NCBI GenBank assembly: GCA_016928395.1
Contig: JAFGKV010000186.1
Location: 1-64,000, forward strand
Length of the DNA stretch: 64,000 nt
Direction of reading: 5' to 3'
Source of the DNA: Candidatus Fermentibacterota bacterium
GTDB lineage: Bacteria; JAFGKV01
The position numbers and the translations under genes are program-made. The first letter of the stretch is position 1; each line of letters opens with the position of its first letter. The notes under the pieces were generated by a model. The model had not been told where the DNA came from and searched no databases. It saw only the letters and a program-made list of their open reading frames with translations. Positions 53,278-56,640 of this stretch are shown piece after piece.

Positions 53278-53991
53278 ATGGATGAAACCATAGAACTCCT
53301 GCTCAAGCTTCAGGAGATCGATTCTCTGGCGGACGAGCTGGAGAGGAAGAGGGCGCTGGTTCCCAAGCGTCGCGCTGAGCAGCAGGCGGTGCTGGATGCC
53401 GCAGTTGCCGCAGTGGCTGAGCACAAGGACCGGGTCAAGAAGAAGGAACTAGACAAGCGCGCCGCAGAGAACGAAGTCAAGGAGATCGAACAGACCACGC
53501 TACGCTACCAGACCCAGCTCAATGCCGCCAAATCGAACGACGAATACCGGGCGCTGGTTGCCCAGATCCGGCGAGCCAAGGAACGGCAGAACGCCCTTGA
53601 GGACCGGGTCCTCGCCGCCATGGAAGAGATCGATCAAGTCGAGCGTGCGCTTGGCGAGGCAGAGGCCGCCCGAAAAGCCGCCCACCAGCAGTCTGCAGAC
53701 CGCGATCGTGAGCTCACTGCTCTGTCGGCCTCGCTGGGGGAGGGAATCCAGGCAAAGGCTATGGAGAGGAAGCGGGTCGCCTCGTCCCTCGATCCGGTGA
53801 CCTTGCGCCGGTACGAGCGTATCCGGAGTGGCCAAGGCGCTCCTGCGGTAGCCGTGATTGATGGCTACATTTGCGGGGGTTGTCACGGCACTCTTCCGGC
53901 GCAGACTGTCAACGAGATCCGGAGAAGAGACAAGCTGTACACGTGCCAGTTCTGCGGCAGGATCGTAGTCACGCTCTCACCGCAGGACTAG
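53278..53991 (+). CDS. Coiled-coil protein with C-terminal C4 zinc ribbon (CT398-like)
   Basis: 237 residues. About 170 residues of heptad-rich coiled coil (for example LQEIDSLADELERKRALVPK, QTTLRYQTQLNAAKSNDEYR) are followed by a zinc ribbon with CGGCHG and CQFCGR. The NDEYRAL region is conserved in this family. Its function is not settled; the gene is often found next to nif3 or rnpB, as it is here. The start is weakly supported by a ribosome site. It ends 11 bases before RNase P RNA. Confidence 0.88.
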   Translation: MDETIELLLKLQEIDSLADELERKRALVPKRRAEQQAVLDAAVAAVAEHKDRVKKKELDKRAAENEVKEIEQTTLRYQTQLNAAKSNDEYRALVAQIRRAKERQNALEDRVLAAMEEIDQVERALGEAEAARKAAHQQSADRDRELTALSASLGEGIQAKAMERKRVASSLDPVTLRRYERIRSGQGAPAVAVIDGYICGGCHGTLPAQTVNEIRRRDKLYTCQFCGRIVVTLSPQD

Positions 53992-54131
53992 GCTGGTTAG
54001 CCGTCAGGGACGGCCCCAGGCGATCGCCTCCCGGCAGCGCCGGGGGGAGGAAAGTCCGAGCTCCCCGGGGCAGGGTGCTTCGTAACGCGAAGGCCGGGTG
54101 ACCGGCGGAAAGCGCCACAGAAAGTATACCG

Positions 54132-54206
54132 CCCCGCACCCAAAGGCTGCGGTGCCCCTGCACTGCAGCAGTCTGGTTTCTTTATCCGCCGCCTTTGGGT
54201 GCGGGG
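54132..54206 (+). repeat. 75-nt hairpin insertion at P12 of RNase P RNA
   Basis: Arms CCCCGCACCCAAAGGC and GCCTTTGGGTGCGGGG are exact 16-base complements, with a 43-base interior. The outer 11 bases of each arm recur in the second hairpin at 54380. In a compact type A RNA such as that of E. coli, this helix is much shorter. Confidence 0.8.
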
Positions 54207-54379
54207 TAAGGGTGAAACGGTGAGGTAAGAGCTCACCGGTTCCGGAGGCGACTCCGGAAGCCGGGCAAGCCCCACCTGGAGCAAGGCCAAATAGGGAGGA
54301 ATGAGCCGCCCCGACTCTCATCCTCCGGGTAGGCCGCGTGAGCCCGTCGGTGACGGCGGGCCCAGATGAATGATCGCCA

Positions 54380-54452
54380 CCCCGCACCCACGAGCCGCGA
54401 AGGGGGAGCAGGCAATGCCCATGTTCCCGCTGCGCTGCTTGTGGGTGCGGGG
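54380..54452 (+). repeat. 73-nt hairpin insertion at P18 of RNase P RNA
   Basis: Arms CCCCGCACCCAC and GTGGGTGCGGGG pair over 12 bases and continue inward imperfectly. It sits between the conserved ATGAATGA and ACAGAAC segments, where E. coli has a short P18 hairpin. The outer arms match those of the P12 insertion. Confidence 0.8.
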
Positions 54453-54480
54453 AACAGAACTCGGCTTATGGGGCCGTCCC

Positions 54481-56640
54481 ATGACGCTATCGTCCGATGC
54501 TTTTATCGCCGGTGTAAGGGATCTCGATCCCAGCCTCGACACCGTCATCCTTGGCCGCGCGTTCGACATGGCATCCGCGGCCCATCGCGACCAGATGCGT
54601 GCCTCTGGTGAGGCATACTTCAGCCATCCCCAGGCCGTGGCGCTCACCGTTGCCCGCCTGGGCCAGGGCAGTGACGCGGTAGCCGCTGCCCTGCTTCACG
54701 ACGTCGTCGAAGACGGCGGCGTCACCATCGACAATGTGCGACGCGCCTTTGGCCCCGGCATCGCGACTCTGGTGGCGGCACTGTCCAAGATGTCTGCCCT
54801 CGAGACCCCCCAACGGGAGGCCCGTCAGGCCGAGTACTTCCGGCGTCTCCTCCTGGCATTGGGCGAAGATGTGCGGGTGATCGTCATTAAGCTGGCAGAT
54901 CGCCTCCACAACATGCAGACCCTTTCCTTTCTCGCCCCTGACCGCCAGCGCTCCATCGCCACTGAAACCCTGGATATCTATGCGCCCCTCGCCCATCGCC
55001 TGGGAATGGGGTGGTTTCGTGTGCAGTTGGAGGATCTCGCCTTCAAAGAGCTCGATCCGGCATCGTATCAGCAGATGAAGGAACGTGTCGCTGCCCGGCG
55101 AGAGGAACGCGAGTCTATGGTGGAGGGATTGGCCGCTCCTCTGGCCGCCATGCTCACCGCGGAGGGAATCTGCGGGCAGGTGGTTGGGAGGGTGAAGCAC
55201 TTCTACGGCATCTATCGGAAGATGAAGCTCAACGGGAAGTCGTTCGATGAGATCTTCGACCTGGTAGGTCTTCGAGTCATCACGCAGTCAGTGGAGGACT
55301 GCTATCGGGCGTTGGGTCTGGCCCACACAATGTGGGCCCCGGTGGAAGGGCGTTTCAAGGACTACATCGCGGTTCCCAAACCCAACATGTATCAAAGCAT
55401 CCACACCACGGTCAAAACCGAGGAGGGTGTCACCGTGGAGTTGCAGATACGGACCTCGGTGATGGACACCATTGCTGAATTCGGCGTTGCGGCACACTGG
55501 CGATACCATCTGGAGCAAACCGGAAAACGCTACGTGGCCAAGGAGCATTTTCGCTGGATTCGACAGCTCCTCGAGTCAGAAACCGCCGAGGATGCCCGGA
55601 GGGATCTGCTGGGCGCCTTCCGCGACGGAACCCGAGACGCCGAGGTCATGGTGCTGACGCCCCGCGGCAAGTTGATTCCCATGCGGGCCGGTTCTACGGC
55701 CCTTGACTTCGCATTCTCCCTGCACTCCGATATTGGGCTGCACTGCGCCGGCGCCCGGGTCAATGGAAAGGCCGTCACGCTGGATCATGTCCTGAGCAGT
55801 GGTGATCAGGTGGAGATTCTCACCTCCCCTGCAGCCCATCCCACCCCAGGCTGGCTCACCAGGGTGGCGGGCACCAGTGCCCGTCAGAAGATCAGGCGAT
55901 ACCTTCGGCGAGCAGAGCGTGAGCGACTTCAGGCGTCAGGACGGACACTGCTCCTACGGTATCTGCGCAAAGAGAAGCTCCCGCTTCCCAAGACGGGGAT
56001 TGCGTGGGATGAGCTAGCCCAGACCCTTCAGTATCCTACGGTTACTGAACTTCTTCATGCCGCGGCCATTGGCGCCGTGAGCCGTTCCCATCTGGCAGCG
56101 CTGCGACCCAAGGAGGAACCATCGCCATCTCAGGAACCCCTGCGCGACATACCCCATGAAGCCCGGGGAATTCGTTTGGGCGATCTCCGCGGGATTGCCG
56201 TCAGATTCGCCGAATGCTGCCGGCCGATTCCGGGTGACAGGATCACCGCCATGGTGACCAGGGGCCGGGGCGCCAGTATCCATCGCGTTGATTGCAGCAA
56301 TGCCTTCCGAGGCGACGCCGAACGGTGGATCACCGTGGAGTGGGATGTGGCGCACGGAGAGACCTTCAGTGCCCACTTGGCCGTACTGGTCGGCCAACGG
56401 AGAACGGTGCTGGGAGACATGGAGGCGGCAATCCAGGGTGCAGGCGCACGGCTGGGAGGGATTGAGATCACCAGCGACATTGACGGATCTCGTTGGCTGC
56501 AACTGGTGGTGGTCGTGACGGGCACACAGCATGTGGACGCAGTGCTGACGGCGATCCGCAAGCTGCCCGGCGTCCTTGAGGCGGCGCGGGGACGCCCCAC
56601 CAGGCCTGGCCGAAGAGTGCAGAGAGCGATCCAGTCGTGA
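54481..56640 (+). CDS. relA: Bifunctional (p)ppGpp synthetase/hydrolase, RelA/SpoT
   Basis: 719 residues from MTLSSDAFIAGVRDLDPSLD at 54481; the frame upstream to 54370 is RNase P RNA and is rejected. The hydrolase HD domain is intact (SHPQAVA, LLHDVVEDGG with His73-Asp74, KLADRLHNMQTL). The synthetase domain has FYGIYRKMKLNGKSFDEIFD, FKDYIAVPKPNMYQSIHT and VELQIRTSVMD. A TGS domain (VLTPRGKLIPMRAGSTALDF) and a C-terminal ACT domain follow. It makes and removes the stringent-response alarmone. No ribosome site is visible, since the upstream bases are the P1 strand of RNase P RNA. Confidence 0.93.
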   Translation: MTLSSDAFIAGVRDLDPSLDTVILGRAFDMASAAHRDQMRASGEAYFSHPQAVALTVARLGQGSDAVAAALLHDVVEDGGVTIDNVRRAFGPGIATLVAALSKMSALETPQREARQAEYFRRLLLALGEDVRVIVIKLADRLHNMQTLSFLAPDRQRSIATETLDIYAPLAHRLGMGWFRVQLEDLAFKELDPASYQQMKERVAARREERESMVEGLAAPLAAMLTAEGICGQVVGRVKHFYGIYRKMKLNGKSFDEIFDLVGLRVITQSVEDCYRALGLAHTMWAPVEGRFKDYIAVPKPNMYQSIHTTVKTEEGVTVELQIRTSVMDTIAEFGVAAHWRYHLEQTGKRYVAKEHFRWIRQLLESETAEDARRDLLGAFRDGTRDAEVMVLTPRGKLIPMRAGSTALDFAFSLHSDIGLHCAGARVNGKAVTLDHVLSSGDQVEILTSPAAHPTPGWLTRVAGTSARQKIRRYLRRAERERLQASGRTLLLRYLRKEKLPLPKTGIAWDELAQTLQYPTVTELLHAAAIGAVSRSHLAALRPKEEPSPSQEPLRDIPHEARGIRLGDLRGIAVRFAECCRPIPGDRITAMVTRGRGASIHRVDCSNAFRGDAERWITVEWDVAHGETFSAHLAVLVGQRRTVLGDMEAAIQGAGARLGGIEITSDIDGSRWLQLVVVVTGTQHVDAVLTAIRKLPGVLEAARGRPTRPGRRVQRAIQS

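Follow-up and report, generated by a model that had tools for sequence, protein, structure and literature searches.

RNase P RNA is essential, usually encoded by a single-copy gene, and trims tRNAs. In cyanobacteria, STRR lengthen its gene, rnpB, at helix P12. A title cited in PMC2858038 is devoted to STRR in cyanobacterial rnpB, and Rickettsia palindromic elements (RPE) have been described in the M1 RNA and tmRNA genes (Ogata et al. 2002, via PMC2229807); as summarised in the latter source, RPE range in size from 105 to 146 bp and also occur within protein genes as in-frame fusions. The same account reviews RUP, ERIC, NEMIS and YPAL as small non-autonomous palindromic repeats of bacteria (PMC2229807). 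Insertion of repeats in RNase P RNA is already known from Rickettsia and cyanobacteria; we found no published P19 insert and no two related inserts in one RNA, in a search that covered few subscription papers.

The window that we analysed, a stretch of 64,000 nucleotides of Candidatus Fermentibacterota DNA (source genome G000), holds a bacterial type A rnpB in which two helices, P12 and P19, are drawn out into long hairpins with identical 11-base arms (Table 1). We think it rather probable that both hairpins derive from a short palindrome, scattered through genomes of this bacterial family, of which copies were captured at the P12 and P19 tips. From sequence comparison we infer both the derivation of the arms from this repeat and the mechanism of capture.

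Table 1. Positions of rnpB, its helices and its neighbours in the window
Feature	Position	Strand	Remarks
CT398-like coiled-coil/zinc-ribbon protein gene	53278-53991		5' neighbour of rnpB
rnpB, bacterial type A RNase P RNA	54007..54484	+	478 nt; RF00010, 273 bits
P12 with inserted hairpin	54132..54206	+	75 nt; placed by Rfam alignment
P18, intact, GUGA tetraloop	54342..54361	+	placed by Rfam alignment; separate helix
P19 with inserted hairpin	54380..54452	+	73 nt; arms CCCCGCACCCACGAGC / GCTTGTGGGTGCGGGG
Probable native P19 stem, 5' strand CCCCG	54380..54384	+	pairs with CGGGG 54448-54452
RelA/SpoT gene	ATG at 54481		3' neighbour of rnpB

The match to RF00010 covers the model in full (1-367 of 367) with a conserved core and a score far above the gathering threshold of 100 bits, and as the G000 genome contains this one match the gene is single copy. 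Its 3' end is overlapped by the RelA/SpoT start codon by four bases (54481-54484). A sequence-only reading of this locus had described a gene of about 480 nt, lengthened by two hairpins of about 75 nt that share 11-base arms and differ in their interiors, and all of this is borne out: the match is 478 nt long, and the hairpins of 75 and 73 nt both start with CCCCGCACCCA and end with TGGGTGCGGGG around interiors that are unrelated between P12 and P19. In P12 the arms CCCCGCACCCAAAGGC and GCCTTTGGGTGCGGGG pair over 16 bp and are followed by an inner helix. Both hairpins fold far more stably than shuffled sequence, with -49.0 kcal/mol (z -7.05) for P12 and -59.7 kcal/mol (z -8.66) for P19. As for the sites, which had been given as P12 and P18, the former stands and the latter does not: the Rfam alignment identifies the second hairpin as P19, lying after the 3' strand of P2 and before the ACAGAACUCGGCUUA segment, and P18 as an insertion site is ruled out by this alignment together with the intact P18. 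With it falls the claim that the contact between P18 and P8 must be altered, for the GUGA tetraloop of P18, which is of the GNRA type, is kept in G000 and in both relatives described below (G001, G002). There is no tandem array in rnpB, a repeat search of 53900-54600 having returned the arms plus chance pairs alone, and no target-site duplication at P19 in the flanks GCCACCCCG and CGGGGAACAG.

Our comparison within the phylum comprises three genomes, all apparently MAGs: G000, G001 (of the same genus and 82% complete) and G002 (of the same family). In G001 both helices are long (P12 53 nt, P19 73 nt; arms CCCCGCACTCAAAGG and CCCCGCACCCAAAGG), and as this is a different MAG, an assembly artefact is unlikely. 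G002 combines a long P12 (63 nt, CCCAGCACTCAAGC) with a short P19, CCCCGGACCTCCGGGG, whose flanks are identical, a state that resembles an empty site; the P19 of an unrelated Acidobacteria contig (L113) is short, the same as in G002. A short P12 is found in none of the three genomes, the helix measuring 75, 53 and 63 nt in G000, G001 and G002, respectively. Across them the arms co-vary, with two-sided changes at 6 of the 16 pairs of P12, none of which is broken, and at 2 of the 15 pairs of P19, which argues that both inserts are maintained as RNA helices. Since in G002 P12 alone is long, the P12 insert would be the older one, and parsimony suggests that P12 was lengthened before P19. Probably native stem, in P19, is the outer CCCCG. 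Moreover, because both relatives have GCACTCA, the exact identity of the 11-base arms in G000 would be explained most simply if P12 had later undergone a compensatory change, from T-A to C-G.

The arms of the rnpB hairpins are also the arms of a 20-bp palindrome, GCACCCAA.GC.TTGGGTGC, that is found elsewhere in these genomes. As an exact 20-mer (GCACCCAANGCNTTGGGTGC) it has 29 copies in G002 and three in G000, it is missing from the 82% complete G001 and from all 383 genomes of other phyla that were searched, and its reversed control has no match; the pattern GCACCCAN{0,30}TGGGTGC occurs at 31 places in G002 against 0 for the reversed pattern. Comparison of 14 distinct copies from G002 shows a fully conserved stretch of 28 bp (TCCCGCACCCAA.GC.TTGGGTGCGGGA) that ends at a sharp edge in mosaic flanks, and 12 of the 14 do not overlap any ORF of 150 aa or more. 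In G001 the P19 arm equals the palindrome sequence over CCCGCACCCAAAG. Near the dispersed copies no other RNA gene was seen, in that none of 12 loci had an Rfam match. Four G000 contigs (C9, C85, C95 and C188; L065, L069, L070, L071) bear a REP-like repeat of greater length (GGCTTGGCCCCGCACCCAACGC... with CTGGATTGCCCGG-type hairpins after it), in which the 20-bp palindrome or one of its variants is embedded.

The long form of the hairpin is a different matter, as the exact pair of arms occurs at no place but rnpB across the G000 genome. What the genome does contain are four degenerate relatives of 75-79 bp, which are intergenic by appearance with small dubious ORFs overlapping them, and whose arm similarity to P12 is 30.5 (C122), 23.5 (C57), 21.5 (C280) and 20.5 (C340). 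Permuted-arm decoys on 837 kb gave a mean of 17.3 and a maximum of 19.5, where genome-wide maxima would be higher; C122 and C57 lie above all of these decoys and C280 and C340 just above them, a comparison that flatters C122, C57 and C280, which were found by the arm search. C122, whose arms and their spacing are those of the rnpB hairpins, is secure, C57 is likely, and C280 and C340 are marginal once the decoys are extrapolated genome-wide. A covariance model built on seven sequences picked up C340, which was outside its training set, with 40 bits and an E-value of 4.9e-5 (these E-values being rough), in addition to its training members; in an unbiased scan of 837 kb (1316 hairpins) C340 alone came up besides the rnpB pair. 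A high-copy element in G000 is ruled out, given that the exact pair is confined to rnpB and that 837 kb yielded one further candidate. The loose pattern GCAYCCAN{38,66}TGGRTGC was discarded as evidence of copy number: it matches 12 places in G000 against 4 for the control, and most of these look like chance coding matches. G001, at 82% completeness, has no other convincing long copy.

Of the sequence-only reading's idea that a mobile palindrome had entered the gene twice, to be checked by a search for further copies of its arms, these data leave some parts in place and remove others. The arms are indeed shared with a palindrome dispersed in the family of G000 and G002, and G002 does have the short P19; mobility itself remains a conjecture. 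Further copies exist as the four degenerate relatives of about 75 bp, not as the exact pair. Two entries of one exact element would be too simple an account, because the exact arms are nowhere else, the insertion in P19 met a P12 that was already long, CCCCG at the outer end of P19 is probably native and the arm identity in G000 probably reflects the later change in P12.

The course of events that we favour would start from a repeat with the core GCACCCAA(A)G / C(T)TTGGGTGC, dispersed in genomes of the G000/G002 family. A first copy would have been captured at the P12 tip, before the split from G002, and a second one at the P19 tip in the ancestor of G000 and G001, with the native short stem CCCCG/CGGGG kept and the loop replaced. 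As both sites are peripheral, length-tolerant helices, the ribozyme core is left intact, and from then on compensatory changes would have kept the inserts as RNA helices as their interiors drifted. Capture would most likely have proceeded by tip exchange or template switching via a shared CCCG/CGGG stem, or else a non-autonomous palindrome transposed into the hairpin tips. The former route fits at least as well as transposition, because the CCCCG/CGGGG stem of P19 matches the ends of the palindrome, a target duplication is absent and the loop is changed.

The strongest rival to such captures is copying within the gene, in which the P12 tip would have been transferred to P19 by template switching or gene conversion via CCCCG/CGGGG, without a genome-wide element. 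It would account for a P12 that is already long in G002 while P19 is short, the arms of G000 P12 and G001 P19 are the closest of all pairs (score 36), and at pair 9 of the G000 P12 arm the change from T-A to C-G has brought the arm into full agreement with P19, an outcome to be expected of gene conversion. What speaks against it is that GCACCCAAAG in the P19 of G001 is what the dispersed palindrome has, and the P12 of both G001 and G002 reads GCACTCAA instead; that the interiors of P12 and P19 show no relation; and that C122, elsewhere in the genome, has the same arms and the same spacing. We regard intragenic copying as rather unlikely. Still less use, in our opinion, is an appeal to selection, according to which the long helices serve a function of their own (RNA stability, a protein contact or a new tertiary contact) and the sharing of arms is secondary. 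Although two-sided changes do maintain the arms, interiors and lengths drift freely (as the P12 lengths illustrate), G002 manages without a long P19, and P12 and P19 are both known as variable helices, which together make this reading highly improbable.

The resemblance of the arms exceeds what chance would give. Across 112 parsed rnpB genes, the similarity between P12 and P19 arms is 28 in G001 and 24 in G000, with the next value at 15 and the median at 8. In a length-fair control, in which the P19s of G000 and G001 were compared to the P12s of 109 other, unrelated genomes, scores averaged 9.6-9.7 (sd 1.9-2.0) and reached a maximum of 17. Long P19 helices are themselves rare: besides those of G000 and G001, one cleanly parsed P19 among the 112 exceeds 60 nt, two apparent long ones being parse errors. 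Convergence would mean that P12 and P19 grew independently by local slippage and that their GC-rich stem bases happen to favour CCCCGCAC. Indeed, CCCCGCAC also begins P19 in the unrelated G053 and G059, and in G053 (L041) P12 and P19 share CCCCGC[GA]C / GGTGCGGGG without repeats, its P12 insert having no dispersed copies in its own genome. In addition, GCAC lies near the P12 base in 6 of 20 long P12s, namely three of this phylum and three of unrelated genomes, vs 2 of 81 short ones. Part of the arm, it appears, can arise by convergence, and in view of G053 and G059 it is CCA(AAGG) that is diagnostic rather than the arm as a whole. Convergence, however, leaves unexplained why CCA(AAGG) is shared on top of CCCCGCAC, why the arms match a palindrome that is restricted to the family, and scores of 24-28 where the control maximum is 17, and we take it to be unlikely. 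Capture of the dispersed palindrome is the reading that we retain.

Comparable events may be seen at P12 in other bacteria. Among 15 other genomes with a long P12, the insert is dispersed in its own genome in two, G040 and G123. In G040 (L046, L268-L272) P12 consists of nested palindromes, CCCCCCTTCTTGCTTTC / GCAAGAAAGCAGGGGGG, that are dispersed in the genome (10 further matches, one of them 51/51 identical), and some copies carry a second hairpin, GTCCCCCTTGTGGGGAC, inside the first, at its centre. In G123 (L212, L273-L278) the P12 tip carries the palindrome GGAGACAAGGG[GA]TTTAAACCCCTTG, which recurs at many other genomic places; the P12 insert has 33 further matches, some of which are both strands of one palindrome. 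The remaining 13 of the 15 have no such repeat family at the sensitivity used, and the notion that dispersed repeats lie behind every long P12 was rejected, multiple copies being confined to G040 and G123. The rnpB of G138 (L204) has a P12 of 224 nt with arms GTCAGGAGTTAGGATTCAGGATTTAGGG and no dispersed copy at the same sensitivity, and those of G082 and G100 (L173, L192) have small extra hairpins in the P13 region (GGTGGGG...TAAGAGC), a length-variable site.

With three unrelated lineages (this phylum, G040 and G123) beside the published cases from Rickettsia and cyanobacteria, we tentatively raise the possibility, which we consider less likely than not, that P12 and P19 tips are recurrent landing sites across phyla for genome-specific palindromes entering hairpin tips, and that the length of rnpB largely records such captures. 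If the pattern of G040 and G123 held generally, lineage-specific variation in RNase P length would be largely repeat capture rather than slow helix growth. Inserts that survive in an essential RNA such as this show where the ribozyme tolerates foreign hairpins, and two arm-related inserts in one molecule, of which the P19 one is datable by G002, amount to a small natural experiment on how palindromes become maintained RNA helices.

Among known systems, RPE come close in that a small, hairpin-forming, dispersed palindromic repeat sits, apparently tolerated, inside an RNase P RNA gene. They differ from the present case, which involves 20-28 bp GC-rich palindrome arms, two sites in one RNA, another phylum and a long form of low copy number; the inserts of 73-75 bp moreover fall outside the RPE range, so that the two are set apart here by size. 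With RUP, ERIC, NEMIS and YPAL, as with REP/BIME, our palindrome shares its dispersed, mostly intergenic distribution, an ability to land in genes and the composite flanks of the G002 copies, yet its unit is about 28 bp and we see neither a terminal TA nor a target duplication. The P12 inserts of G040 and G123 are alike in placing a dispersed palindrome at the P12 tip, in unrelated phyla, but their sequences are unrelated (the CCCCCCTTCTTGCTTTC palindrome and GGAGACAAGGGGTTTAAACCCCTTG), their copy number is higher and they affect P12 only. With STRR, finally, the present case would share the lengthening of rnpB by a repeat that occurs throughout the genome; where those are tandem heptamers, the repeat described here is a palindrome with diverged interiors that is present in P19 as well.
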